The position numbers were made by a program, and so were the translations under genes. This document shows, one piece after another, positions 2,608 through 63,440 of a DNA stretch of 64,000 bases (its first letter is position 1; every line of letters begins with the position of its first letter). The DNA is from Calditrichota bacterium. Its GTDB lineage: Bacteria > Calditrichota > Calditrichia > RBG-13-44-9 > J042. The notes beneath the pieces are model-generated. The model was not told the DNA's origin. It saw nothing but the letters and a program-made list of their open reading frames with translations, and ran no database searches. The DNA is taken from contig JAADJD010000019.1 of NCBI GenBank assembly GCA_013150955.1, positions 1 through 64,000 on the forward strand, in the 5' to 3' direction.

Positions 2608-4953
2608 TTACCAGATGCTCGTTTCACTAATTCGTTTATAACCGGTTGTCAAATCGTAATATTCATCCAGTTGGTTTTGGGAGACATAATACATCCCGTT
2701 CACTACCGGAGGGGGATTTTCTTTCAGATCCCGGACGCCCACACTGATAATGTAATTCTGAAGGATATATTTGATTTTCAGGTATTCTTCCCGACGTTTC
2801 CAATAATCTGGTATCTCTTTTAAAGCTCCGTAAGCTTCCCACACCTGTTTTGCCTCATCATCCAGTTCAATGAATACGTCCTGTTTTTCATAATTTTGTT
2901 CGATGAGGCGAAAATGTTCAATAGCATGTTCATCATCCGTGTAGCGCAAGTTAGCAATACTCTGGAGAAGTGCTGTACTTTCGGGGGGAGTAAATTTAGC
3001 GATCCAGTCAAAATAATGATTACACAATTCCAGAAAGGTTGTTTCCTCGTATTGGGGGTCACTTAGTGTTTTGGCAGTGACGTCCAATAGAGAGCGGTCA
3101 TAAATAAAAGAGGCAAACAAGCGCCCTTTTTCATTCACTAATCGATAAACATGGACTTCTCCGCTTTCATTTTTTTGAAAACGATTGCAACGACCAGCAA
3201 CCTGATTAATACTGTCCAAAGGTGCCCAATCCCGAAATACTATTTCGGCATCCAGATTAACGCCCGCTTCGACAATTTGTGTGGTGACCAAGAAATACCG
3301 TTCACTGGCGTTTAAACGGCGAATGCGAGCCAGGCGTTCTTTAGGTACAACATGCGAGGATAGGAATTCTGCATCTTCTACCTCAGGTTGAATTTTATAA
3401 AAAAATTCTTGGGCACTACGAATAGTGTTCAGGACTACAATCACCCGGCTTTTTTCGCTGCTCTTTTCAAGCACTTCCTCACAAAAAGCATCCAGAGTAT
3501 AGGTATTTTCCCTATGAAGAAATAAGCGGATACGATTGGTTGCCTGATAATAACGTTGGGGACTCACCAGTGCAATTTGTTCTTCCTGAGGAAAAATCCG
3601 GGGTTGCGTTGCAGTAACTAAAATAAAGTAGCTATTAAAACGTTCTGCAAATTGAATCAATAACTGATGGAGAACCTGCCAGTATTTGTACGGAATACTC
3701 TGGATTTCATCCAGAATAATTACAGCATTAGCCAAGCGATGATATTTACGCAACGTCCGATTCCGATAACCAAGCAGGGTGTGGAAAAGCTGCACAAATG
3801 TGGTAACAATCATTTGACTGTGCCAGCCTTCAATGAGTAATTCCGCTTCTGGCGTCGTGTAAGTTTCTTCTTCCGTTTCGTAAAACACATCGCTCAGGTG
3901 GTGATGTTTTAATAGCAGGGTGGAATCTACTTCATCCGGGAGTGTTTTCTCCAATACGGTTTTGAGTTCTTCGTAGTTCTGGTCAATGATGGTTGTAAAT
4001 GGCAGGCTGTAAATGACGCGGTGAAGTCCTCTGGCATGGAGTAGTTTTAATGCTGCGGATATTGCGGTCAATGTTTTCCCAAATCCAGTGGGGATTTGCA
4101 AATTGAAGATTCGCTGTCGGGTATCTGATGAAGTGGTTATTCTCTTTTGCGCTTCTTGGTATGCCTTAAATCTTAATCTATCAAAAGCAGTGTTCGGTTC
4201 ATTCCAACCTTTCAGGTTCCGAAAGCGATCGATAACGTCATCTGGAATCGGAGTGTTCATTTGAGGAAGTGTATGAATTCCCACAGCGCTCTTGTCGGAA
4301 TCGATAAGAATGGAGTAAAGTGTGTTTGTTAGAAAAAAGAAATCGAGGTCGTTCCTTTTACGAAAAAAATGAGCGATAGGCCGTTGGGGTTTAAAACTTT
4401 TGGGCAAAGATGAAATCCGTTGGTCGATTACTTCCAGGGGCAAGCTAAGTTTGCTGGCATCCCAAAACTTTTGTAACTGTTTGCGTTCAATATTTCTCCA
4501 TTGCTCTTGTAATAGTTCGCTTTGCAAACGAATAGCGTAACTGCGATTGGGACTATGCAGGTCTCCGTGATGATAGCGAATAACCAGGAAAGCAAGGAAT
4601 GCCATAATTTCCGGTGGTGGGTTGACAAAACCTGATGTTTTCAACCAGTTTTCGATTTCCCAGTAAGCGACCACAGCAGAAAGCAAAGCGTGCTGGGTCT
4701 TTTCAGTCTTTACCGGATTTTCTTGCCGGATATAATTTTGGAAAAATGATGTGGTTTTCCCCAGATCGTGAAACAGAGCAATGCGACGACATAAATCCAC
4801 AAATATATCAAATGGCAAAGGGTGTGAAGCACTTTCCGGGAGCGATTGGGCAAATGTTACTGCATATTTTGCTACCTGCTGAACGTGGTCTTCCCAGAAA
4901 GTATCCGGGTGAGAAAGCCACCTATCATTGGAAGAAATGGAGATTGACGCCAT
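2608..4953 (-). CDS. cas3: CRISPR-associated helicase-nuclease Cas3 (type I)
   Basis: A 781-residue Cas3, recruited by Cascade to unwind and degrade target DNA. The N-terminal HD nuclease has H23, the H62-D63 pair in FHDLGKT and a histidine pair in IRYHHGDLH (~128). The helicase follows with Walker A IPTGFGKT (~287-294), Walker B LDEIQS, motif III TATQP and motif VI QVAGRCNR. Both halves look complete. The start codon lies 29 bp inside the 3' end of cas5, which implies translational coupling. Length and domain order fit the type I-B form. Confidence 0.95.
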   Translation of the reverse strand: MASISISSNDRWLSHPDTFWEDHVQQVAKYAVTFAQSLPESASHPLPFDIFVDLCRRIALFHDLGKTTSFFQNYIRQENPVKTEKTQHALLSAVVAYWEIENWLKTSGFVNPPPEIMAFLAFLVIRYHHGDLHSPNRSYAIRLQSELLQEQWRNIERKQLQKFWDASKLSLPLEVIDQRISSLPKSFKPQRPIAHFFRKRNDLDFFFLTNTLYSILIDSDKSAVGIHTLPQMNTPIPDDVIDRFRNLKGWNEPNTAFDRLRFKAYQEAQKRITTSSDTRQRIFNLQIPTGFGKTLTAISAALKLLHARGLHRVIYSLPFTTIIDQNYEELKTVLEKTLPDEVDSTLLLKHHHLSDVFYETEEETYTTPEAELLIEGWHSQMIVTTFVQLFHTLLGYRNRTLRKYHRLANAVIILDEIQSIPYKYWQVLHQLLIQFAERFNSYFILVTATQPRIFPQEEQIALVSPQRYYQATNRIRLFLHRENTYTLDAFCEEVLEKSSEKSRVIVVLNTIRSAQEFFYKIQPEVEDAEFLSSHVVPKERLARIRRLNASERYFLVTTQIVEAGVNLDAEIVFRDWAPLDSINQVAGRCNRFQKNESGEVHVYRLVNEKGRLFASFIYDRSLLDVTAKTLSDPQYEETTFLELCNHYFDWIAKFTPPESTALLQSIANLRYTDDEHAIEHFRLIEQNYEKQDVFIELDDEAKQVWEAYGALKEIPDYWKRREEYLKIKYILQNYIISVGVRDLKENPPPVVNGMYYVSQNQLDEYYDLTTGYKRISETSIW

Positions 4954-5665
4954 TTCCCAGCTTCCAGTATTGTATAGGTTTCGCTTTTATTGGGTTGCCG
5001 TTCATTTCGTAAATCACGGATTCGTAACGCGTGACCATGCGTTCCGCATTCATGGCTACCGGGATACGGTCCCGTTGATATGCCCGTCCTTCTTCAATTT
5101 GCACAGCAAGCTGACCATTGTTTTGTAAATTCTCGACCGAAATAATCGAATGAATGTAGGTATAATCATTTCCACGGGTTGGCGTTGCCTCCGTCTCCTC
5201 CACGAACCGAAAATTGGCCAGGTGTTCGGAAATTCCCAGATAAGGGGTGTAAATGCACTGGTGGTGAATGAGCAGATTTTTTAGTCGGTCCATCAGCGGT
5301 TTGTTCTCCGGATGCGCTACATAAATTCGATAGTAAGGATCTTTTAGGACTTCGATAATCGTCTGATAACGGCCTTTTTCCGAGGGGATGCGCGACAGAA
5401 ATTTAGCCTTTTTCGTTTCGATCCAGTTGTACCCCATACGGGAGGTTTTAATTGGGTTTACAATTTGCACTGCACTGAACAGTCCCTCCAGTTTATTTAG
5501 ATAAAACTGTTCACCTGAAGGGTCTTTATCATAACCCAACAGAGCACCCAATATACCTTTCAGAACCGTAATGGGTGGAAAATGAAAACTTAGTGGGGAT
5601 GCGGTTGTATAGAATTTCTTAAAATGTGCCCAATCTCCCCACAGGTCAAAGACAATAGTTTTCAT
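4925..5665 (-). CDS. cas5: Cascade subunit Cas5 (type I-B)
   Basis: A 246-residue RAMP protein of the Cas5h/Cas5b type, which caps the crRNA 5' handle in Cascade. The opening KTIVFDLWGDWAHFKKFYTT and the following PITVLKGILGALLGY are characteristic. Its 3' end overlaps cas3, and it starts 13 bp after cas7, within a compact operon. No disruption is seen. Confidence 0.92.
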   Translation of the reverse strand: MKTIVFDLWGDWAHFKKFYTTASPLSFHFPPITVLKGILGALLGYDKDPSGEQFYLNKLEGLFSAVQIVNPIKTSRMGYNWIETKKAKFLSRIPSEKGRYQTIIEVLKDPYYRIYVAHPENKPLMDRLKNLLIHHQCIYTPYLGISEHLANFRFVEETEATPTRGNDYTYIHSIISVENLQNNGQLAVQIEEGRAYQRDRIPVAMNAERMVTRYESVIYEMNGNPIKAKPIQYWKLGNGVNLHFFQ

Positions 5666-5678
5666 TATCAGACCCCTT

Positions 5679-6590
5679 TTAAAATGAAAAGCTGCTTATT
5701 GATACTCCATCCAGCAGTTCCGGGAGTTGAGAAATTGAGGGTGCCATTTGTAAGCGCTCATCAACAGCATATCGAATGCGCGCAATTTTTCCTTTTTCCC
5801 GTTGCAGAGTTTCTACCAGCGGTAGAATATTCAAGGTCAGTTGGGAAATGTCTCGTAAAGCTTCATCTTCAATGCCATCCTCTTTTTTAATAGAAACCAT
5901 TTTGTCCAGATCACCAATATGGAAATTGGGTTCTTGGTATTCAATATCCAACAACAACCGGGGCATTTGTCCAAATTTGCTTCGGGAAATAAGGTTTTTG
6001 GTACCATTCCAGATGGCTTCCATCAGCAAATCTAAGTCCGAATCAGTCATCCGCGTATGCCTGGCGGCATTTTCGTTAGCAATGCCGTGGAATACAATGA
6101 GGGAATAGGGTAATGTGTAAACTTCTGTGAACGTTCCCTGTTTTCGAGCTTCTTTAGAAGGCATCACCGTTGTACCTTTGACGTAATCCAATTTTACCCT
6201 ATGTAACGACCGTCCAAATTTGAATTGTACCGGACCGGTAAAAGTAATAGTCTTGTTTTTAATGGCTGCTGTGGCCCCAAACAGACGAATGTCAATGCAG
6301 GTGTTGATTAAATCATCAGCACTGCTAATGTTTAAGTCATCCAGACGGTCTTCTTTGGTTTTTAAATTACCATCCTCTTTTTTTACTTCCCGAACAAAAA
6401 CTTCCATATTTTTGTGATCAAATAAATAGTCCCGAATGGTGCGTTTTAACCGGACATCGGTAACAATATTCACCCCGGTTTCTTCGTCAATACGCGGTTT
6501 GTTCTCATCAATGGGGTCACCGTTGGGATTGGCATCTTTGACGTCATAGATGAATAAAATTTCGTGCCGGTGGGTTAATGTTTCAGCCAT
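5679..6590 (-). CDS. cas7: Cascade backbone subunit Cas7/Csh2 (type I-B)
   Basis: A 303-residue Cas7 of the Csh2 type, which polymerises along the crRNA to form the Cascade backbone. The N-terminal segment FIYDVKDANPNGDP and the later TGVNIVTDVRLKRTIRDYL are typical of Csh2. It lies 21 bp after cas8b and 13 bp before cas5, with GGAGG-type ribosome-binding sequence upstream. The usual length of the family is matched. Confidence 0.94.
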   Translation of the reverse strand: MAETLTHRHEILFIYDVKDANPNGDPIDENKPRIDEETGVNIVTDVRLKRTIRDYLFDHKNMEVFVREVKKEDGNLKTKEDRLDDLNISSADDLINTCIDIRLFGATAAIKNKTITFTGPVQFKFGRSLHRVKLDYVKGTTVMPSKEARKQGTFTEVYTLPYSLIVFHGIANENAARHTRMTDSDLDLLMEAIWNGTKNLISRSKFGQMPRLLLDIEYQEPNFHIGDLDKMVSIKKEDGIEDEALRDISQLTLNILPLVETLQREKGKIARIRYAVDERLQMAPSISQLPELLDGVSISSFSF

Positions 6591-6611
6591 GACTCCTCCT
6601 TTATGCTGGGT

Positions 6612-8405
6612 TTAATTGTTGTTTTCTGATTCATCAATTGGTTCTTTACCCACTTTGAAAATGGGTTTGCCATCTTCGGTTGTGGCATTGGATAAATCCA
6701 TGCCCAAGAGGAAGTAAAAATTGATTTCATCATCCGTAATGTTCCAGTGGGAACCTGCCCGAACGAAATATTCGGAGATGACCTCTTCAAGCTGGGTATA
6801 ATAATTCTCGCCATACTCTTCCAGTTTGTTCTGAACTTCAGGAAAAATTTGCAAAATATCGCGCTGACGCATTTTGAGCCCTTTTAAATTTTTTCGGAAA
6901 GGCTGAGAGCCTCTATCCCGTTGTTGAATGTTTAATAAAAATTGGGTAAGCACGCCGGTCAGGAAAACAGCCCGTTTTTCCGCGGTATCGAACGTATCCG
7001 GAAACTGCTTAAAGAACTGTTCAACTTTTTCTTTGACTTCGTTTTGAATTAGGTTGTTACTCATAACCAGTTCCCCTTTTGGTTTATTGGCTAAAATGTT
7101 TAATTCCATTAATAATAAAATAATTTGAAAGGCCTGCAGTGTTTGGATTCGGGTGAATTCCTCATTGGCAAATCGCTGGCGCAAAACACCCAGAAATTGA
7201 CTTAAGAGATAGAAGTAATCCACGGGTTTGCGTTTAAAAACTTTTTCAACCACATTCAGAAAAGCCTGAGGATTAGAGATAAAGTTACGAATATTTCGGA
7301 AAGTAAATTCTATGTTTTTTAGCTCATCTTTTTCTTTATATGCTTCTTTAAAAATTGAATGGTTTTCCACAGTTTCTTTTGCAATAAACAGTTTTTTAAT
7401 CATGGATGGTAAAACATCTGGAAGATAAAGCAGAATGGTGAATTTTGCTTTAGCACTTTCGTAAAATAAAAAGTTGTAAACCAGGGCATCGCTTTGTTCG
7501 GAGGCAAAATCCAGAATGTCATCTTCTTCATCCGCTAAACGTTTTAAATCCCGAGTTTTAAGCTGTTTTTTTCTTTCCTGTTCCAGAAACACTAATGCTT
7601 CGCTCAATACTTCGGGGTTTCCTAAAATTGATTTTGGCATCAGATAATATCGGATTCCCGCAAAGCGAAAATTCAGCGCATCTTCTACATGCTGCTTGCC
7701 TTCTTCTATAAATAAACTGCATTTTTTACAAATGGGAAAATTTTTCCACCCGGTTTTTGCTGAAAATCCAGAAGCGATGAATCCGGGTTTGTCTAAGCTG
7801 TAGAAGGCCCAGGGCTTTACATTGCCCATGACAAACCCTTCCGTGCCACAAAGACTACAAACACCTTGTTCGTGGGCAATATCTTTTTTAGATTCGTAAT
7901 ACGTTTCAACAAAATAATTGCGGAATGCTTCAATCTCACCGATATGCTGATTGTTTATGCTAACGGTTAAAATAATTCCGTCGCTGCCTTCTTCAGCTTC
8001 TTTCTGTTCCAAGTGGCGTAAAATATCCTTTGCATATTTTTGTATAGCACGCGCCAGTTCACCAACGATGTTTTTATGTTCAGCATTTCCTTTTGCCCAA
8101 TTCAATATTCGATTGTTGAATGTTCCTGTTAATCCTTTTCCCGCTACCAGGGCACAGGGCGTATAATTGGCTCCGGAAGCTCCTTTTCGTTTGTAAAGGT
8201 ATTTGTCGTACTGTGTAGAAATCGGTTCATTAAAAATTCCGGAATATGATAATTCGCCATTGCCTGTTTTATCGAAATTAATTCGGATAACAGTTGAGTA
8301 ATTTTCGCTACCGGGATTTTCTAAAAGAATTGAAATTTCATCTGAAACGGATTTCCCCTGATCTTCCAGGGAAAAACGTCCAATTTCACGTAAACTTTCC
8401 AGCAT
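6612..8405 (-). CDS. cas8b: Cascade large subunit Cas8b/Csh1 (type I-B)
   Basis: A 597-residue large subunit that recognises the PAM and recruits Cas3. The Csh1-type zinc-binding site is visible as C183-x2-C186 (CSLCG) and C226-x2-C229 (CKKC). Similarity is typical for the poorly conserved Cas8b family; assignment rests on the cysteine pattern, length and position before cas7. It is separated from cas6 by an unusually long 249-bp leader that carries its own promoter-like sequence. Confidence 0.9.
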   Translation of the reverse strand: MLESLREIGRFSLEDQGKSVSDEISILLENPGSENYSTVIRINFDKTGNGELSYSGIFNEPISTQYDKYLYKRKGASGANYTPCALVAGKGLTGTFNNRILNWAKGNAEHKNIVGELARAIQKYAKDILRHLEQKEAEEGSDGIILTVSINNQHIGEIEAFRNYFVETYYESKKDIAHEQGVCSLCGTEGFVMGNVKPWAFYSLDKPGFIASGFSAKTGWKNFPICKKCSLFIEEGKQHVEDALNFRFAGIRYYLMPKSILGNPEVLSEALVFLEQERKKQLKTRDLKRLADEEDDILDFASEQSDALVYNFLFYESAKAKFTILLYLPDVLPSMIKKLFIAKETVENHSIFKEAYKEKDELKNIEFTFRNIRNFISNPQAFLNVVEKVFKRKPVDYFYLLSQFLGVLRQRFANEEFTRIQTLQAFQIILLLMELNILANKPKGELVMSNNLIQNEVKEKVEQFFKQFPDTFDTAEKRAVFLTGVLTQFLLNIQQRDRGSQPFRKNLKGLKMRQRDILQIFPEVQNKLEEYGENYYTQLEEVISEYFVRAGSHWNITDDEINFYFLLGMDLSNATTEDGKPIFKVGKEPIDESENNN

Positions 8406-13828: not shown

Positions 13829-14668
13829 TTAACGGAAGAGTTGTAAGATTCCCTGTGGTGCGGCGTTTGCCTGTGCCAGCTGTACCGTTGCCGTTTGCTG
13901 CAAGATCTGGAGTTTGGTTATCTCCATCTGCTCCTTGGCCATATCGGCGTCCATGATTCGGCTGGCTGCGGCTTCGGTGTTGGTAATGGCAACCAGCAAC
14001 GTGGCTTCTTTATAATCCAACCGCTGGATCAACGATCCAATGTTCTGCAGTTCCTGGGTCACCGTCTTGATCGCGTTGTCCACGCTGTTCAGGGTAACGC
14101 TCAGGCTGCTTCCTTGCAGATCGGTAGAGGCGATGTTGTTCAGACCGAAATCGGAAGAATCGATCGCTTTGGTCAGGCTGATGCTCAGCGTATCGCCACC
14201 ATCCGCACCCACCTGGAACACCTTCCCGGTGAAGTTGTTGTCCAGCAATTGGGCGTTGTTGAACTTGGTCTGAGAGATGATGTCATCGATCTCGTTCAGC
14301 AAGTCTCGGATCTGAGTCACAATCGCATCCAGCTCTTCGGAACCGTAGGATCCGTTTCCGGCCTGAATCACCTTCTCCTTAATGGTGACCAGGATGTCGT
14401 TGATGTTTTGCAGGCCACCTTCGGCGACGGAGAGAATGTTTTTCGCCTCGCCGGCATTGTTCAGGGCCTGTCCCAGTGCTCGGGAACGCGCCTTTAATTT
14501 GGTCGCCAGCGTGTAGCCTGCTGGATCGTCTGCGGCCGAGTTAATCCGCTTCCCTGTGGAAAGCCGCAGCTGAACCACCCCAATTTTGCTGTTGATGTTG
14601 CTGAGGGCGTTAAACGCGTTGAGGGCACCAACGTTGGTGTTAATCCGTGAACCTGTGTAAAACGCCAT
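13829..14668 (-). CDS. Flagellin, paralogue 1
   Basis: A 279-residue flagellin consisting only of the conserved D0/D1 ends: RINTNVGALNAFNALSNIN and SAADDPAGYTLATKL at the N terminus, and AASRIMDADMAKEQ plus QANAAPQGILQLFR at the C terminus. There is almost no variable D2/D3 domain, so it would make a thin filament surface. It is about 80% identical by eye to the tandem copy at 14886. It has its own sigma-28-like promoter, a CsrA-like hairpin at the ribosome-binding site and a terminator, so it is likely expressed independently. Confidence 0.95.
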   Translation of the reverse strand: MAFYTGSRINTNVGALNAFNALSNINSKIGVVQLRLSTGKRINSAADDPAGYTLATKLKARSRALGQALNNAGEAKNILSVAEGGLQNINDILVTIKEKVIQAGNGSYGSEELDAIVTQIRDLLNEIDDIISQTKFNNAQLLDNNFTGKVFQVGADGGDTLSISLTKAIDSSDFGLNNIASTDLQGSSLSVTLNSVDNAIKTVTQELQNIGSLIQRLDYKEATLLVAITNTEAAASRIMDADMAKEQMEITKLQILQQTATVQLAQANAAPQGILQLFR

Positions 14669-14885: not shown

Positions 14886-15725
14886 TTACCGGAATAGACT
14901 CAAGACGCCCTGTGGCGCCGCGTTTGCCTGCGCAAGCTGTACCGTTGACGTTTGCTGGAGAATCTGAAGTTTGGTTAACTCCAGCTGTTCCCGAGCAATA
15001 TCGGCGTCCATGATTCGGCTCTTGGCGGCTTCCGTGTTGGTAATGGCCGTCAGCAGGGTCGATTCCTTCACGTCCAGTCGACTGATCAACGAACCAATCT
15101 TCTGCAGTTCCTGAGTCACCGTCTTGATGGCAGTATCGATACTGTTCAGAGTGGTGGAAACGCTGCTTCCGGTTAAGTCTGTGGTGGACAGACTGTTCAG
15201 CCCGAAATCGGACGAATCGATGGCCTTGGTTAAGCTCACCGTCAGCGTATCGCCGCCGTCGGCGCCGATCTGGAAGATCTTGCCAGTGAAGTTGTTGTCC
15301 AGCAATTTGGACGAATTGAACTTCGTCTGGCTGATGATATCGTCCACTTCCTTCAGCATGTCGTTGATCTGCGTCAGGATGGCGTTGAGCTCTTCGTCGC
15401 CGTAAGAACCGTTTCCGGCCTGAATGACTTTCTCCTTGATACCCACGTAGATATCGTTGATGTTTTGCAAGCCACCTTCGGCCACGGAGAGCACATTCTT
15501 CAGCTCGCCGACGTTGTTGAGTGCCTGGGAAAGACTGCGAGAACGCGCTTCCAGCTTTTTGCTCAGGGTGTAACCTGCGGGGTCATCGGCAGCGGAGTTG
15601 ATCCGTTTGCCCGAGGCCAAACGCATCTGAACCGTGCCGATTCGGGAATTGATGTTGTTGAGGGCATTGAAGGCATTCAGTGCCCCAACGTTGGTGTTAA
15701 TGCGGGATCCAGAATAAAACGCCAT
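14886..15725 (-). CDS. Flagellin, paralogue 2
   Basis: A 279-residue flagellin, the tandem sister of the gene at 13829 with the same length and nearly the same ends (GSRINTNVGALNAFNAL; SRIMDADIAREQ; QANAAPQGVLSLFR). Differences are concentrated in the D1 linker helices. It too lacks a variable surface domain. The best sigma-28 promoter in the window lies upstream and overlaps the stop codon of the glycosyltransferase gene. Two separately controlled flagellins suggest a filament of mixed or staged composition. Confidence 0.95.
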   Translation of the reverse strand: MAFYSGSRINTNVGALNAFNALNNINSRIGTVQMRLASGKRINSAADDPAGYTLSKKLEARSRSLSQALNNVGELKNVLSVAEGGLQNINDIYVGIKEKVIQAGNGSYGDEELNAILTQINDMLKEVDDIISQTKFNSSKLLDNNFTGKIFQIGADGGDTLTVSLTKAIDSSDFGLNSLSTTDLTGSSVSTTLNSIDTAIKTVTQELQKIGSLISRLDVKESTLLTAITNTEAAKSRIMDADIAREQLELTKLQILQQTSTVQLAQANAAPQGVLSLFR

Positions 15726-28608: not shown

Positions 28609-28628
28609 AAAATCCCCGTGGGCTTAAT

Positions 28629-28789
28629 CCCGGATTATGCATTAGCCTACGAATTACACGAATCAACACCAATAAAAATAGAATGCACTTGATCTATCTG
28701 GATGAAAATGCTTTCCCGGATATATTCGCTGTTTTGTTGATTTTTTTCGAATACATTCGCGTAATACGTGGTTACCTGCATCATTTGGG
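28629..28789 (+). repeat. 165-bp-family element between tetR and its operator
   Basis: A 161-bp copy from CCCGGATTATGC to GCATCATTTGGG with a perfect 5-bp duplication TTAAT (28624-28628, 28790-28794). Removing it and one TTAAT would place the palindrome at 28802 about 28 bp before the tetR start. The exporter transcript now starts beyond the element and must carry it as a structured leader. Confidence 0.93.
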
Positions 28790-28801
28790 TTAATTTACTG
28801 G

Positions 28802-28819
28802 TTTAACCAGTTGGTTAAA
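28802..28819. promoter_or_regulatory. Palindromic operator, probably for the TetR regulator
   Basis: TTTAACCA-GT-TGGTTAAA is a perfect 8+2+8 palindrome. It lies 10 bp after a promoter-like pair, in the place where a TetR repressor would block transcription. Confidence 0.65.
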
Positions 28820-28829
28820 TCCGATGGTT

Positions 28830-28858
28830 AACATACGCCTTTCCCGGTTCAAATTCAA
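28830..28858 (-). promoter_or_regulatory. Candidate promoter of the tetR-exporter operon
   Basis: On the minus strand TTGAAT (28853-28858), 17 bases, then TATGTT (28830-28835) form a fair sigma-70 promoter immediately upstream of the palindrome. Confidence 0.5.
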
Positions 28859-28942
28859 GGGAAAAATGGGTTTTGCCTTCAGAAAGGTTGTCCTCACCGG
28901 CCCGGGAGGGGGTGCCAGCAGATCAATCAGCGACAACTTAAC

Positions 28943-28985
28943 TCAGATGATGCCATGGCCTACAAATGACACGAATAAAAATAAT
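28943..28985 (+). repeat. Truncated 165-bp-family element (left half)
   Basis: TCAGATGATGCC through ACACGAATAAAAATAAT follows TTAAC (28938-28942) and matches the left 43 bases of the family. It stops where the next copy begins; ATAATCCGGG at 29151-29160 may be its right terminus after an internal deletion. Confidence 0.7.
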
Positions 28986-29150
28986 TCCAGATTATGCATT
29001 AAGCCACGAATTGCACGAATTAACACCAATAAAAATAACGAAATGCACTTGATTCTACCTGGATGAAAATATTTTCCCGGACATATTCGCTATTTTGTTG
29101 ATTTTATTCGAATTCATTCGCGTGATTCGTGGTTCTTTGCATGATTTGGG
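28986..29150 (+). repeat. 165-bp element nested in a truncated copy
   Basis: Exactly 165 bp, TCCAGATTATGC to GCATGATTTGGG, with the perfect duplication ATAAT (28981-28985, 29151-29155). Between 28609 and 29290 (682 bp) I find only these repeats, the operator/promoter, and unassigned sequence at 28860-28940 and 29161-29290. Confidence 0.92.
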
Positions 29151-29290
29151 ATAATCCGGGTGAAAATGCGGCGAACTGTTCGGTGTTCCCGCATGGCACA
29201 AAGCCCGTTTTCTGATTCCCGGAAAAGATCGGATGCCACCTTCGCTGCAGGGAATTTTCCCGGGGTGTGGCTCACCTTCATGAAAGGGGC

Positions 29291-31178: not shown

Positions 31179-32797
31179 CCCCGGACAATGGCCTGCGCGG
31201 CCACCCGACCGGTCAGGATACAGTTCCCCAGAAAGGTGCCCTCCAGAGCCCGCCATCCGTGAATGCCACCACCACCAAAACCGGCGGCCTCGCCCACTGC
31301 AAATAGATTGGAAATGGGATTTCCCTCTCGATCCAGGACGCGGCTTTGCAGGTCGGTCTGAATACCTCCCAGGCTTTTTCGGCTTAAAATAAACTCGCGA
31401 ATGGCAATCAGGGGACGGGCCCGGGGATCCAGAATTTTTTGAAACTTGCACGTTCGCACCCGATCCCCCCGGTATTGCCGCAGGTGTGCGATGCGCCGAA
31501 GCTGATCGTCGTTGAAGAATTTCGGGCCACGCTCAATCTGATCATCATATTCTGTGATGGTTCTTTCCAGCGTGGCCAGATCCACATCCTGGGTGCCGGT
31601 CAGCGCATTCATCTTTTCCACCAGCTCCACAAGGGTGTCGGCCACCACAAAATCCGGACAGTGTTCGATCAGATAACGCACCAGGGCCGGGTTGCCCATC
31701 ACTAAATGTTTCAGGAAGGGGAGCCATTTCCGCTCCCGGATGCTGTCGTTAAATTCGGCACCGGATATGGCCAGTTCCTTACAGGCAATCTTCCAGTTTA
31801 AGATTTGCCAGGAATATTTTTTCGGCTGGCGGCAGATCTGATACACCAGGTACCGCGTGTCGTAACCGGAGACCAGTGGTGGGGGGCCCAGTCGTTCACC
31901 CCGGTAATTGACCCACAACGCCGATTTGGGGGGCACCAGGCTCAATCCATGATGCGGACGCAGGGGATGAGGCCGGGGGTGATGCACGCCCGCTGCATAA
32001 TTCCACATTCTGTCCAGGTGGGTAACCTGCCCACCCAGTTTTTCGACCAGCTGGTGCAATTCCCCGCGGGCAAAATGATGGGAGCCATTCAAGATTGTTT
32101 CCGGGGGATCGCCCCATTCGCGGAACCAGTGGCGACGCACCAGATCCAGATCGCCATTGATTCCCCCGGAAGCGACCACCACGGCGTCGGCTTCCATTTC
32201 AAAGGGGACACCATCCGGTTCCACCTCGCCCGCGCATCCGGTGATTTGTCCGCCATTTTTCATCAATTGGGTGACGTGGTGTCGGAAGTGCAGGGTAAGC
32301 CGCTGACGATTGGGATGATTTTCGATGGCCTGGATAAGCTTCTGGATCAGCCAGTATCCCGTGCCCCAGACCATGTGGAAGCGAGGGACTGAATTGCCCG
32401 GGGTATACAGGCCCCGCTCCACCCAGTGGACGACCGGGAAAAAGCGCACGCCCTTCTGGCGTACCCAGGCGTAGACGTCATCCCGGCAGCGGTGAACGTA
32501 TTGCTCGGCCCAGCGCCTGGGCCACTCGTCTTCCGGGCCGAATTCGGCAAACGCCAGCCAGTCCCGTAATGCCAGTTCTGGACTGTCTTTAATCCCCAGA
32601 CGCCGCTGCTGAGGGGAGTCCACTACAAAAATACCGCCAAAGGATTCCCGCGCCAGTCCCCCAAAGCGACTTTCTTCATCCCGATCCAGCAGGGCCACCG
32701 GGATGTTGGCATCCAGCAATTCCAGGGCGGTGGCAATTCCCGCCAGACCACCCCCAATAATGGCCACACCCGTGCGATGTTTCTTCGCTGAAGTCAT
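31175..32797 (-). CDS. FAD-binding dehydrogenase (fumarate reductase / ketosteroid dehydrogenase family)
   Basis: A 540-residue flavoprotein. The FAD dinucleotide fold is VAIIGGGLAGIATALELLDA with the acidic ribose contact VALLDRDEE, and the C-terminal FAD motif is NLFAVGEAAGFGGGGIHG. It has the mid-protein capping domain of the FAD-binding dehydrogenase group annotated as ketosteroid-dehydrogenase-like. Substrate is unknown. It is the upstream gene of a pair with the ThDP enzyme, all on the minus strand. Confidence 0.83.
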   Translation of the reverse strand: MTSAKKHRTGVAIIGGGLAGIATALELLDANIPVALLDRDEESRFGGLARESFGGIFVVDSPQQRRLGIKDSPELALRDWLAFAEFGPEDEWPRRWAEQYVHRCRDDVYAWVRQKGVRFFPVVHWVERGLYTPGNSVPRFHMVWGTGYWLIQKLIQAIENHPNRQRLTLHFRHHVTQLMKNGGQITGCAGEVEPDGVPFEMEADAVVVASGGINGDLDLVRRHWFREWGDPPETILNGSHHFARGELHQLVEKLGGQVTHLDRMWNYAAGVHHPRPHPLRPHHGLSLVPPKSALWVNYRGERLGPPPLVSGYDTRYLVYQICRQPKKYSWQILNWKIACKELAISGAEFNDSIRERKWLPFLKHLVMGNPALVRYLIEHCPDFVVADTLVELVEKMNALTGTQDVDLATLERTITEYDDQIERGPKFFNDDQLRRIAHLRQYRGDRVRTCKFQKILDPRARPLIAIREFILSRKSLGGIQTDLQSRVLDREGNPISNLFAVGEAAGFGGGGIHGWRALEGTFLGNCILTGRVAAQAIVRG

Positions 32798-32903
32798 GGT
32801 CGGTCTCCCTGTTGGCGTATCTGAACATACGGCAGCCGGTGGAAAAATTCAATAGGGAGACGCGGGAAATCCTTTAACGCCCCTTTTCCCCCTGGCATGA
32901 ACC

Positions 32904-32927
32904 GCCGTGCCTGAAAACGGGCACGGC
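32904..32927 (-). terminator. Hairpin after the MDR oxidoreductase gene
   Basis: GCCGTGCC and GGCACGGC pair across an 8-base loop. No strong T-run follows on the minus strand, so termination strength is uncertain. A short decayed piece of the 165-bp family (CCCGGTTTGTACATTGAATTG) lies at about 32934-32970. Confidence 0.45.
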
Positions 32928-32968
32928 ATTTATCCCGGTTTGTACATTGAATTGCGAATTCCTGCGAA

Positions 32969-33994
32969 TTATTGGTCTTCCATGGTCAGAACGATTTTCC
33001 CGAATTGTTCCCCTTTAAGCATCCGTTCGTAAGCGGAACGATAATTTTCCAGGGGGATGGTGGTGTCCACAATGGGCTTAATTTTATGGGTATCGAACAG
33101 GCGAATCATTTCGTAAAAATCCTGTTCGGTTCCCATGGTGGTACCCTGAAGGGTGATTTGTTTCCAGAAGATTCGGCGCAAGTCCAGGCGCGAGGGGTTA
33201 CCCGCGGTGGCGCCAAAAAAGACGATGCGACCTCCGGGGTTGATCAGCTGGATCAGATCGGCAAAGCTATCGCCACCGGCGCTGTCTACAATCAGGTCAA
33301 TGCCCTGAGGGGCGGTGAGTTTTTGCAGGTGATTGACCCACCCATCCTCACGGTAATTGGCGCCACCAAATGCCCCGGAATTGACCGCTTTCTTGATTTT
33401 CTCGTCGGAGCTGGAGGTGACCACCACCCGGGCACCTGCGGCCAGTGCCATCTTTAACATCAGCGCGGCGACACCCCCACCGATTCCGGTGAGGAGCACA
33501 GTTTCGCCCGCGGTTAATCGGCCCTGGGTAAAAAGCGCCCGGTATCCGGTCAGGCCCGCCAGCGGAATGGCTGCCGCCTCGGCAAAACTTAAATAATCCG
33601 GCTTGGGTACCACCTGGTTCACGGCAATGGTGATCCATTCTGCATGAGTGCCGTTGTCGGGCATGCCGAGTATGCGATAATCTCTCCCCTGCGCACGGGG
33701 ATTTCGTCCCCAATTCAGGCTGGGATTAATCATAACGGCCTTGCCTATCCAGGAGGGATCCACTCCTTTTCCCACCTGATCCACCACGCCGGCACCATCC
33801 GACCCCAGAATGACCGGGAGTTGAATGTTGGCGTACAGTCCCTGCACAATCCACACATCCCGATGATTCAGGGCGGCCGCTTTTATGCGCACCCGTACCT
33901 CGCCGGGAGCCGGCTCCGGGATGGGGACGGTATCCAGTTTTAAATAATCCAGATCTTTGGTCTGGTGTAATACAACCGCTCGCATCTTGTTCAT
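32969..33994 (-). CDS. Medium-chain dehydrogenase/reductase (zinc-type alcohol dehydrogenase-like)
   Basis: A 341-residue MDR oxidoreductase. The GroES-like domain (MRAVVLHQTKDLDYLKLDTV, AAALNHRDVWIVQG, VILGSDGAGVVDQVGKG) is followed by a Rossmann domain with GIGGGVAALMLKMALAAGA. The catalytic-zinc cysteine that usually follows ALN is replaced (ALNHRD), and the structural four-cysteine lobe is absent, so it is more like quinone-oxidoreductase or acyl-CoA-reductase MDRs than a true zinc enzyme. Start at 33994 has GGGAG upstream. Confidence 0.87.
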   Translation of the reverse strand: MNKMRAVVLHQTKDLDYLKLDTVPIPEPAPGEVRVRIKAAALNHRDVWIVQGLYANIQLPVILGSDGAGVVDQVGKGVDPSWIGKAVMINPSLNWGRNPRAQGRDYRILGMPDNGTHAEWITIAVNQVVPKPDYLSFAEAAAIPLAGLTGYRALFTQGRLTAGETVLLTGIGGGVAALMLKMALAAGARVVVTSSSDEKIKKAVNSGAFGGANYREDGWVNHLQKLTAPQGIDLIVDSAGGDSFADLIQLINPGGRIVFFGATAGNPSRLDLRRIFWKQITLQGTTMGTEQDFYEMIRLFDTHKIKPIVDTTIPLENYRSAYERMLKGEQFGKIVLTMEDQ

Positions 33995-34127
33995 TTTTGT
34001 TCTCCCACAACGTTTTTTCATAAAATACATTCGGGATGGTAAAGAATCAAATCCCCTGGATTTTCCCGGCTCCAGAGCCAGCGTCGCTACCGGATGCGTC
34101 CTGGCAGGTTCTGACAATTCCGTTAAA

Positions 34128-34294
34128 CTTAGATGATGCATTAGAACCACGAATTACACGAATGAACACAAATAAAAATAAAAAAAATGCATTTGATTCT
34201 ATCTGGATGAAAAAATTTTCCCAGATATGTTAGCTATTTTGTTGATTTTTTTCGAATACATTCGCGTGATTCGTGGTTTCACGCATTATTTGGG
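34128..34294 (+). repeat. 165-bp-family element, inverted twin of the copy at 36526
   Basis: A 167-bp copy (CTTAGATGATGC to GCATTATTTGGG) with perfect duplication TTAAA (34123-34127, 34295-34299). Its interior, including GATGAAAAAATTTTCCCAGA, is nearly identical to the reverse complement of 36526-36692, more so than to any other copy. Confidence 0.93.
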
Positions 34295-34416
34295 TTAAAG
34301 GGTGGCGATGCATGGGGATTTTCCCTATATTGAATGCGATTCACAATCTGATGGGGCGTGCTACTAATAAAACCGCTTTACCGGGGTGTGGAAAACGTTC
34401 ATCGAGGTCAATCATC

Positions 34417-35079
34417 ATGAATTGTTGCCATCAACAGTGTGCGGGGATTCGAGAGATTTTTAACGAAAAGACCGCGCGCAAAAATTTAAAGCAGTATCTG
34501 AAAAAGGGGGCGGCCAAAACCACCCGCATGTTGCTTCAGGCCATTGAGGAAGCCAATGGCACCGCGGAAAGTCTGCTGGACATCGGTGGCGGGGTGGGCG
34601 CCATTCAGCTGGAACTCCTTCAGCAGGGTATACAGAGGGTTTACAGCGTGGATGCCTCTCCGGCTTATCAGGCGGTTGCCCGCGCTGAAGCAGAACGCCG
34701 GGGATACTGCGATCGCATCATTTACCTGATGGGCGATTTTGTGGAGCTGGCCCCTCAGGTTCCCGAAGTCGATATCGTTACCCTGGATCGGGTCATTTGT
34801 TGCTACCCGGATGTGGAACATCTGGTTGGCCTGTCTGCCCGGCGGGCCCGGCGATTGTATGGACTGGTATTTCCCAGAGAGCGCTGGTGGGTCAAGCTGG
34901 GGGTCAGGGGGTTGAACACGGTCATGTGGGTGTTGCGTCGGCCATTTCGCACCTATGTCCATTCCACCCAGGTAGTGAACAATATTTTGCATCGTGAGGG
35001 ATTTGTCCGTCGGTACCACCGCACCCGGGGAATGTGGCAGGTTATGCTTTACGTTCGGGAACATTCCCGGGAAGCTTAA
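34417..35079 (+). CDS. SAM-dependent methyltransferase
   Basis: A 220-residue class I methyltransferase. Motif I is SLLDIGGGVGAIQLELLQ, the acidic residue at the end of strand 2 is in VYSVDASPAY, and motif IV is VTLDRVICCYPD. Size and motif order are like small-molecule methyltransferases of the UbiE/BchM type; the substrate is not readable. ATG at 34417 has GAGG upstream. It stands alone between two repeat elements, and its stop codon lies inside the target duplication of the second. Confidence 0.8.
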   Translation: MNCCHQQCAGIREIFNEKTARKNLKQYLKKGAAKTTRMLLQAIEEANGTAESLLDIGGGVGAIQLELLQQGIQRVYSVDASPAYQAVARAEAERRGYCDRIIYLMGDFVELAPQVPEVDIVTLDRVICCYPDVEHLVGLSARRARRLYGLVFPRERWWVKLGVRGLNTVMWVLRRPFRTYVHSTQVVNNILHREGFVRRYHRTRGMWQVMLYVREHSREA

Positions 35080-35080
35080 T

Positions 35081-35473
35081 CCCAGATTGTGCATTAGACC
35101 ATGAATTACACGAGTGAACACAAATAAAATAAACCCGTTGTGCGAATTAGACAATCCAAACCGTTAAAACGGTTCTATAACTTATTGTTACTACAGGAGT
35201 TGCCCACCCAGATAAATCTGGGTTCTGGGTGTTAATGAATGAGAAATTCTATTAACTCCTGGCTTTAGCCGGGAGAAAATGGATAACGTAACCGATTGAT
35301 TCTTAACCGTTTTAACGGTTTTTCTAAACACCTGCTTTATCCTGAATTAGCACAACGGGTAAAATAAATTGAATTGTATCTGGATGAAAAACTTGTTTTC
35401 GTGATTTATTCGCAATTTTGTGGATGTATTTTGGTTTCATTCGTGTGATTCGCGCTTGAATACATTTTTGGGG
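35081..35473 (+). repeat. 165-bp-family element interrupted by a second element family
   Basis: The copy runs CCCAGATTGTGC to TTTTTGGGG, flanked by the perfect duplication TTAAT (35076-35080, 35474-35478). Net of the 226-bp insert and its 9-bp duplication it is 158 bp. The left TTAAT contains the TAA stop of the methyltransferase gene. With its insert it accounts for nearly all of the 437-bp gap. Confidence 0.92.
35134..35359 (+). repeat. 226-bp second-family insertion element with hairpins
   Basis: Ends are CCCGTTGTGC and GCACAACGGG (perfect 10-bp inverted repeats, extending imperfectly to GAATTAG/CTGAATTA). It is flanked by the perfect 9-bp duplication TAAAATAAA (35125-35133, 35360-35368). 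Inside are four hairpin palindromes: AACCGTTAAAACGGTT, CCCAGATAAATCTGGG, CCTGGCTTTAGCCGGG and AACCGTTTTAACGGTT. No protein is encoded. A fragment of the same family occurs at 44762-44810. Confidence 0.92.
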
Positions 35474-35516
35474 TTAATCGCCGACCGGTGGATTTCTTCG
35501 GGGATGGCGCCGCGTC

Positions 35517-36398: not shown

Positions 36399-36525
36399 TG
36401 TTGAACCCAATTCAAGGCGTGTGGGTTCAATTCGGTGAACCGATTCTCCGGCAATTCGGGTGAATTGCAGAGGATTGGGTTTCGGGTTTTGGGATGACGA
36501 ATCGATGCCTTATTTTTGAATAAAA

Positions 36526-36692
36526 CCCAAATAATGCGATAAACCACGAATCACGCGAATGAATTCGAAAAAAATCAACAAAATAGCTAACATATCTGGG
36601 AAAATTTTTTCATCCAGATAGAATCAAATGCATTTTTATTATTTTTATTTGTGTTCATTCGTGTAATTCGTGGTTCCAATGCATAATCTGGA
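36526..36692 (-). repeat. 165-bp-family element, reverse orientation
   Basis: A 167-bp copy in the opposite orientation (CCCAAATAATGC to GCATAATCTGGA on the plus strand). Flanks TAAAA (36521-36525) and TTAAA (36693-36697) match in four of five bases. With its twin at 34128 it brackets the methyltransferase and DUF429 genes. The gap 36399-36837 otherwise shows only the inverted repeat noted for DUF429. Confidence 0.88.
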
Positions 36693-36837
36693 TTAAATTT
36701 TGCGGGAATGGGGCGTGACCGGCAGATGCGGAAATTGACGTCCGGCGGTAAAGAACCGGTTGACCAAAAAGTAATTTGAGAACGCAAAGGGTATTCTCTG
36801 CGTTAAGGGATCAAAGGAATGGGGTGGTAAAAAGCAA

Positions 36838-39376: not shown

Positions 39377-39579
39377 CCCCAATTATGATCTAAACCACGA
39401 ATGACGCGAATGAACCCCGATTATGCAATAGACCACGAATTGTACGAATGAACACGAATAAAATTAACAAAATACATTGGGTTGGATCTGGATGGAAATG
39501 TGTTTCGAGGTTTATTCGCGATTTTGTGGATATAGCTTGGTTTCATTCGTGTGATTCGCGGTTTACTGCATTGTTTGGG
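39377..39579 (+). repeat. 165-bp-family element with a nested or tandem partial copy
   Basis: A partial left end (CCCCAATTATGATC..., 39377-39415) is followed by a nearly full copy (CCCGATTATGCAATAG to GCATTGTTTGGG, 39416-39579). Flanks TTTAG (39372-39376) and TTTAA (39580-39584) match in four of five bases; the former contains the PAP2 stop. The rest of the gap to 39782 holds no gene I can recognise. Confidence 0.85.
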
Positions 39580-39782
39580 TTTAAGTTGAGCACAATCCAT
39601 GGCCTTATCCGTGACCGGTGGTGAGCAGACCCGTTTTTGTCCCCTGTTCCGGGGGATTGGCCAGAATACCCCTGAAAACGGAAAAAATCCTTTCCATTGC
39701 TAAACCGCTTCTCAATTTTTTAATTTCGATCAGCTCAAAATACAGGTTTGAATCAATTAATGATCAGGAAAGGAGGCCAGCC

Positions 39783-44409: not shown

Positions 44410-44869
44410 CCCAGATGATGCATTCAACCCAAATCATGTATTGAACCACGGATCACGCGCATGAAACCAAAACATATCCCCAAAACCGCGAATCAGCAAC
44501 GAAACCCATTTTCATCCTGATACAATCCAGTGTATTTTGTCCCAAATTATGCTTTAGACCACGAATTGCACGAATTAACACTAATAAAAACAAAAAAATC
44601 CGTCGGATTGGATCTGGAAGAAAATTCGCTTCATGGTTTATTCGTGGTTTATTGATATGATTCGAATTCATTCGCGTGATTCGTAGTTTAACGCATTATT
44701 TGGGTTTATTGGTTTTATTTGTGTTCATTCGTGTCATTCGTAGGCTAATGCATAATCTGGGTTTAACGGTTTTTCTAAGTACCTGCTTTATCCTGAATTA
44801 GCACAACGGGTTATTTTGATTGGTGTTTATTCGTGTAATTCGTGGTCTAAGGCGAATGCAAAATATGGG
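44410..44869 (+). repeat. Composite hot spot of at least three nested repeats
   Basis: An outer copy (44410-44427 and 44811-44869, reverse half) flanked by TTAAT and TTTAT holds a reverse copy at 44428-44761 (net 165 bp), which itself holds a forward copy at 44541-44704 (164 bp). Flanks match in four of five bases each. The remaining part of the 722-bp gap (44870-45004) has no visible gene. Confidence 0.85.
44762..44810 (+). repeat. Fragment of the 226-bp second element family
   Basis: TTTAACGGTTTTTCTAAG to CTGAATTAGCACAACGGG matches the right-hand 49 bases of the element at 35134-35359, differing at two positions. It proves the second family is dispersed, and its left side was removed by the adjoining 165-bp element. 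Confidence 0.88.
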
Positions 44870-45004
44870 TTTATTTGTGCTGTTCACCTCCCTCTAAGCG
44901 AACCACTCAACCGGATTGAAAAAAATAAGTGGCCATCCGAAAAAGGTTTTTCTGTTGTCATAAACGATTTATTTTTATGGTTTACATCCGATGCTTGATG
45001 TAAC

Positions 45005-62821: not shown

Positions 62822-62865
62822 ATATTCCTTTTCATTCCTTGGCAAACCGATCGATTGGTTTTAAA

Positions 62866-63307
62866 CCCAAATAATTCAGGCAACCACGAATCCCGCGAAT
62901 GAACCCAAAAAATATCAATAAAATCGCGAATAAACCTTTAACCCAAATAATGCATCAAACCACGAATCACACAAATAAACCCAAATAATGCAATAAACCG
63001 CGAATCCCGCGAATGAACCTAAAAAATATCAATAAAATCACGAATAAACCTCGAAGCGAATTTTCATACAGATTTAAACCAATAGATTTTATTGTTTTTA
63101 TCTGTGTTCATTCGTGAAATTCGTGGTTTAAAGCATAATTTGGGATAATTCCTAAAAATATCAACAAAATAGCGATTAAATCCCGGAACACATTTTTATC
63201 CGGATATAATCAAACGGATTTTATTATTTTTGTTCGCGTTAATTCGTGTCATTATTATTTTTGTTCGCGTTAATTCGTGTCATTCGTAGGCTAATGCATA
63301 ATCTGGG
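62866..63307 (+). repeat. Composite of nested 165-bp-family elements
   Basis: A 442-bp block flanked by the perfect duplication TTAAA (62861-62865, 63308-63312). It contains partial copies starting at 62866 and 62942, one exactly 165-bp copy at 62980-63144 in reverse orientation, and a right-end segment with a 31-bp tandem duplication (~63222-63283). The outer halves on both sides belong to one original insertion. The rest of the 656-bp gap (62822-62860 and 63313-63440) is unassigned. Confidence 0.88.
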
Positions 63308-63440
63308 TTAAAAACGATTCGTTTCCTTGCAAATTCCGGCCGGAATTTGCAGCCGAAGCAGAATTATACTTGAATTTTATTCGAAACCTTCTTACCATCC
63401 AGTTAAGTAAAGGCCGGTCTCAATGACAAAGGAGGGTACG

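Follow-up and report, generated by a model that had tools for sequence, protein, structure and literature searches.

Our analysis points to a chimera of two transposition systems: a short MITE whose IS982-type ends enclose a REPIN-like hairpin core from a subclass-1.2 Y1 system, a reading to which we give a probability of roughly two in three. The element lies in the window, by which we mean the whole stretch of 64,000 nucleotides that was analysed. An IS982 transposase supplied in trans would move it, the core would represent a REP/REPIN-like single-stranded substrate of a subclass-1.2 Y1 system, and capture of this core between IS982-type ends would have produced the chimera. If true, a single-strand and a double-strand transposition system have merged in one element, a candidate substrate is given to a transposase subclass described as being without REPs and IS properties, and MITE-like elements with different ends carry one and the same Y1-linked hairpin core.

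The element (Table 1) is a non-autonomous DDE transposon, dispersed in the genome, with inverted ends and duplications at insertion. Most of what had been predicted from the letters alone holds: 10-bp inverted ends bound 226 bp with the 9-bp sequence repeated on both sides, the insertion splits a 165-bp repeat, and the element belongs to a second mobile family distinct from that repeat. It occupies at least 41 places in its own genome at E ≤ 0.001 (4,068,269 bases, 66 contigs), at least 22 of them near full length, both counts being lower bounds with 40 of 69 first-look candidates scored. The right-end fragment that had been taken as a sign of dispersal shares 47 of its 49 bases with the MITE right end, and the further copies with both ends and a duplication, on whose existence the original prediction depended, are present. 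Identity among the 40 main places is 78 to 100%, the usual full copy measures ~217 bp (alignment of 39 copies and pieces), and the window copy alone has ~9 extra bases beside hairpin H2 (35224-35232). The element is thus short (about 217-226 bp), present in many copies and without a transposase gene, as is expected of an IS982-family MITE; viral contigs gave no match. The assembly is uncertain around this repeat, since many contigs end inside copies (C7, C16, C28, C31, C34, C46, C55, C59, and C65) and the flanks of some copies may be mosaics (L007/L059 and L009/L013).

Table 1. Features of the element, its insertion site and its dispersed fragment (positions within the window)
Feature	Position	Strand	Remark
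Interrupted 165-bp palindromic repeat (target), left part	35079..35133	+	
Left target duplication TAAAATAAA	35125..35133	.	
Whole MITE, 226 bp	35134..35359	+	no coding gene proposed
Left terminal inverted repeat CCCGTTGTGC	35134..35143	+	end common to IS982-family element on C14/C4
Four-hairpin REPIN-like core	35159..35322	+	model R1 match, 114.3 bits
Hairpin H1 AACCGTT-AA-AACGGTT	35159..35174	+	
Hairpin H2 ACCCAGAT-AA-ATCTGGGT	35206..35223	+	
Hairpin H3 CTCCTGGC-TTTA-GCCGGGAG	35256..35275	+	
Hairpin H4 AACCGTT-TT-AACGGTT	35305..35320	+	then TTTT
Right terminal inverted repeat GCACAACGGG	35350..35359	-	
Right target duplication TAAAATAAA	35360..35368	.	
Interrupted 165-bp palindromic repeat, right part	35360..35475	+	
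MITE right-end fragment	44762..44810	+	adjoining end of another 165-bp repeat

Insertion of the MITE duplicates its target. An exact 9-bp duplication was found in 5 of the 19 full copies with both flanks, and one with at most a single mismatch in 8 of 19, compared with 5/342 and 23/342 for cross-paired flanks; since the base at −1 beside intact ends is nearly always A and that at +1 always T, a 9-bp T...A duplication is indistinguishable from a 7-bp one with A...T inside the element. The 165-bp repeat, which makes up 4.2% of the window (2,684 of 64,000 bases), is the preferred target, with a strong preference for one AT-rich site: 41 of the 48 evaluable copies or pieces adjoin it (at most 8 nt away), in both orientations, and in 33 of these 41 cases the junction falls at positions 46-62 of the repeat profile. 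Further members of the 165-bp family (~165-170 bp, near-palindromic, and often clustered) lie in the window at 606-779, 1733-1906, 28625-29155, 34126-34299, 36524-36694, 39411-39584, 44426-44871, and 62862-63309. At one locus (L022 ~1694-1876; G000:C15:17161-17559) the nesting is reversed, and a MITE copy is interrupted by a 165-bp repeat with a TTTAT-like stretch duplicated; each family can thus insert into the other, and the 165-bp repeats are mobile as well.

The ends of the MITE match those of an IS982-family element that the genome also contains; it was located by means of solitary CCCGTTGTGC ends and lies on contig C14 at ~32469-33480 (L061 ~1070-2081), with a part on C4 (1-794). Its ends are CCCGTTGTGCTAATTAAATC (right) and CCCGTTGTGCTAATAAAAAAG (left), with a mismatch in the left end on C14, against CCCGTTGTGCGAATTAGACA and CCCGTTGTGCTAATTCAGG in the MITE. 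The IS ends are CCCGTTGTGC(T/C)AATTAA and the MITE left end is CCCGTTGTGCGAATTA, so that CCCGTTGTGC + N + AATTA is common to both. The transposase encoded between these ends scores 181.7 bits with NF033520 (cut-off 130) and 17.5 bits with the IS4 model (cut-off 115), and on these scores an IS1/IS4 origin was discarded. With ends that match those of an IS982-family element, the MITE lends no support to the IS1/IS4-like mechanism originally read from the duplication length. The MITE is probably moved by an IS982-type transposase, which would putatively cut and paste it in trans. As assembled, both IS982 copies of the genome are incomplete (that on C14 is frameshifted, that on C4 is cut by the contig end). 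IS982 was detected in two of the six genomes searched, the own genome and G062, and it was not found in G007, although G007 has a MITE of the same family. IS982-derived MITEs are already known from Cardinium: MITECca01 of Cardinium cOegib is likewise non-coding, ~240 bp long and present in many copies, with ends like those of the IS982-family element ISCca4, whereas a four-hairpin core, a link to Y1 and repeat-targeted insertion are all absent from its description in the accessible part of that paper (PMC9769881).

What sets the element apart is its interior. In the core, a two-hairpin unit (AACCGTT hairpin, ~30 nt, CCC..GGG hairpin) is present twice in opposite orientations, so that two palindromic units stand inverted to each other, as in REPINs and BIMEs. 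That the second half repeats the first in inverted form is seen from the two central loop bases, which are RA in H1 (19/20) and H2 (18/20) and YY in H3 (19/20) and H4 (19/20) of alignment A2, which holds 20 units (4 from the own genome and 16 from others) picked by eye from pattern matches and in which conservation of H1 and H4 is partly imposed, as the search pattern fixes them. A DNA match is present in 4 of 60 genomes, the own one included; the same hairpin order is found in G007 and also in G040, where the stem sequences are different. The pattern, which fixes only H1...H4, matched 66 stretches in genome contigs, and at least two interior hairpins were present in 19 of these, one in 20 and none in 27, against two in 0.08% and one in 2.4% of dinucleotide shuffles. 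Several of the 66 (from Methanolinea, Streptomyces, Paraburkholderia, and others) are apparently unrelated. In A2, 97.0% of the cells are paired and 14 pairs have changes on both sides; the cells changed on both sides number 92, compared with 27.6 after shuffling (0/500) and 5-16 in slid controls. Judged by these aligned sequences, the core recurs across phyla with compensatory changes in its stems.

Such pairing raises the question of an RNA. A functional RNA, or a bidirectional terminator that makes intergenic insertions tolerable or useful, would agree with the strong predicted fold of the element strand (−79.4 kcal/mol versus −47.1 in shuffles, z −7.8). It would also agree with the TTTT after H4 and the A before H1 in many relatives (TTTT being part of the search pattern) and with the gene context of 22 copies, 10 of which lie between convergent, 10 between tandem, and 2 between divergent genes in a crude gene scan. 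However, a terminator scan calls none at H1 or H4, Rfam has no match in the window at gathering score (the best weak one is iscRS with 19.2 bits against a cut-off of 40), and the pairing is equally expected of single-stranded DNA. Single-stranded DNA hairpins for a HuH transposase also explain the covariation across phyla equally well. We consider an RNA or terminator function unlikely. Of the two roles first suggested for the interior, the captured REP-type cassette was largely right, and the RNA role gained neither an Rfam match at gathering score nor covariation beyond shuffles within the genome.

A second alternative is a plain IS982 MITE, in which the hairpins are the accidental interior of a master copy and have no link to Y1. 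MITEs with interiors that differ from those of their IS are common. Furthermore, covariation among the own-genome copies is no higher than in shuffles (2 both-side cells versus 1.1; 155/500), as is expected of young copies, and divergence in their stems (0.057) is only a little below that of unpaired positions (0.071). But the order and spacing of the four hairpins and the orientation of their loops are found again in other phyla, accompanied by compensatory changes, which strains an accidental origin, and the core is also found beside Y1 genes. Hence, we regard a plain IS982 MITE as quite improbable.

The connection of the core to HuH/Y1 transposases, on which the chimeric reading depends, was seen in several lineages. 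A gene of ~146-165 aa is surrounded by direct arrays of the two-hairpin half unit at Bacteroidota loci, and whole cores flank a Y1 gene on both sides in a Deferribacteres MAG (L090), KSB1 (L164; G040), Neomarinimicrobiota (L166), Sphingobacteriales (L167), and G013 (L192). All six proteins tested have the Y1_Tnp domain; they also score above the cut-off of the IS200 model but not above that of the REP-associated (REP_Tyr) model. The proteins adjoining cores are ~150 aa long and have a WQ motif and the Y-x3-Q-x2-HH (Y---Q--HH) signature, which characterizes TnpA-Y1 of subclass 1.2 (PMC6006769, accessible part). Signature, WQ motifs and length (about 148 aa in that subclass) therefore agree with the subclass as presented there; the same part of the source gives REP "no" for it and says that IS200 terminal structures are generally lacking, whereas many of the genes found here are flanked by hairpins. 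The arrangement at L192 (1283-2080) is a clear case of core-Y1-core in a genome of the same order as the window genome.

For an unbiased set, Y1 genes were collected by protein search without regard to hairpins in 40 genomes of the phylum, 31 of which have the protein. The R1 core was found at 5 of 30 such loci at E ≤ 0.001 and at 8 of 30 at E ≤ 0.01, and in 1 of 19 control loci, which holds the MITE itself. Hairpins of any sequence reach a density of 4.74/kb within 350 bp of the Y1 gene versus 0.54/kb at 700-1400 bp (29 loci), and an identical hairpin on both sides was seen at 13 of 27 loci versus 1 of 22 far windows; by the both-sides measure, 9 of the 30 unselected loci are without hairpins.

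The own genome has a subclass-1.2-like Y1 of 149 aa on contig C35 (motif YVQNQEQHH). No Y1 gene flanked by the MITE core was found in this genome; the C35 gene is flanked by CCCCACGC and TTTTGTCC hairpins instead, and a same-genome cognate Y1 with the core at its sides, as in REPIN/BIME systems, was therefore seen in other genomes only. Around the C35 gene, CCCCACGC..GCGTGGGG and TTTTGTCC..GGACAAAA hairpins alternate in an array (L151/L186; G000:C35 ~3400-6700), possibly a second, different REP system. Weak core-like matches outside the MITE occur at L173 (G000:C66 ~4326-5057), L178 (C47), and L179 (C17), in a longer repeated array where AACCGCTAAAGCGGTT precedes CACCGGCTTGAAAGCCGGTG and other hairpins. 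That a recent move by the Y1 system itself brought the core into an IS982-type MITE, and that this system is still mobilizing cores here, with IS982 being incidental, is very unlikely: the Y1 gene on C35 and the few weak places on C66, C47, and C17 would fit it, but all strong core matches of the genome coincide with MITE places, the C35 gene has other hairpins at its sides, and the MITE copies have target duplications, which HuH/Y1 transposition is not known to make.

The core is also found inside other elements. In Desulfococcaceae HSG8 it is enclosed by GGGCGTATCC...GGATACGCCC, and 8 of 10 copies show an exact 9-bp duplication (against 1/90 for cross-paired flanks); in G062 it is enclosed by C(G/A)ACCTGTGCAATC...TTGCACAGCTCG, and 5 of 8 copies show an exact duplication of 8 bp (control, 2/56). 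These carriers are MITE-like and have ends that differ from those of the own MITE. Further candidate ends surround the core in KSB1 (G040) and in Neomarinimicrobiota NIOZ-UU68; neither inverted ends nor duplications were seen around the cores of G072 and G071. An assignment of the G062 MITE ends to IS982 is not supported by the G062 IS982 halves, which end in ...CTTGTGCTAG and ...CATTGTGCTAG, unlike CGACCTGTGCAATC. That elements with other ends contain comparable cores suggests more than one capture. Whether the finding extends to a general rule, namely, that subclass-1.2 Y1 transposases have a REPIN-like substrate of inverted two-hairpin units, whose architecture is kept from Bacteroidota to Calditrichota and Desulfobacterota while the stems co-vary, and that DDE-type MITEs with at least three end types captured this core repeatedly and spread it, is in our estimate evenly balanced.

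Like REPINs and BIMEs (PMC3116915, PMC6006769, and PMC8266576), the core consists of two inverted palindromic units and, outside its own genome, is linked to a HuH/Y1 gene. It differs in that each half has two hairpins, a GTAG tag is not evident, and the unit is enclosed, in its own genome, by DDE-type ends with duplications. Immediately 5′ of H1-H4, the window copy and the consensus show neither GTAG nor GTGG (feet on this strand).

Among the papers searched for six spellings of the hairpins, only the genome paper of Caldithrix abyssi gave a match, and its accessible part describes 38 exact intergenic copies of AACCGTTNNAACGGTT, strand-specific by a central GA/TC, unconserved beyond 18 nt and with no function assigned (PMC5317091). 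Titles and abstract openings, mostly without subscription papers and preprints, contained no DDE-type MITE with such a core. The C. abyssi 18-mer aAACCGTTgaAACGGTTt, intergenic and strand-specific by its central GA/TC, equals H1/H4 of the MITE; the palindromes are described there as isolated 18-mers, in contrast to the multi-hairpin core found here (PMC5317091, same part). G017, which is probably C. abyssi (one contig, 4,978,541 bp), has six exact cores in 1.2 Mb, and two of the six are followed by a CCC..GGG hairpin, CCCACCGTTGAAACGGTGGG or CCCGCCGTTGAAACGGCGGG, giving two half units with co-varying stems. That the Caldithrix palindromes are whole four-hairpin modules was rejected, as R1 matched three places in 1.2 Mb (E ≤ 0.01) and two of the six cores resemble half units. 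Capture of a Y1-linked hairpin core may explain such orphan palindromes of the Caldithrix type.

Elsewhere in the window, two minus-strand ORFs of 279 aa each (13829-14668 and 14886-15725) lie ~1 kb apart and are 76% identical over a 300-base stretch, which marks a gene duplication.
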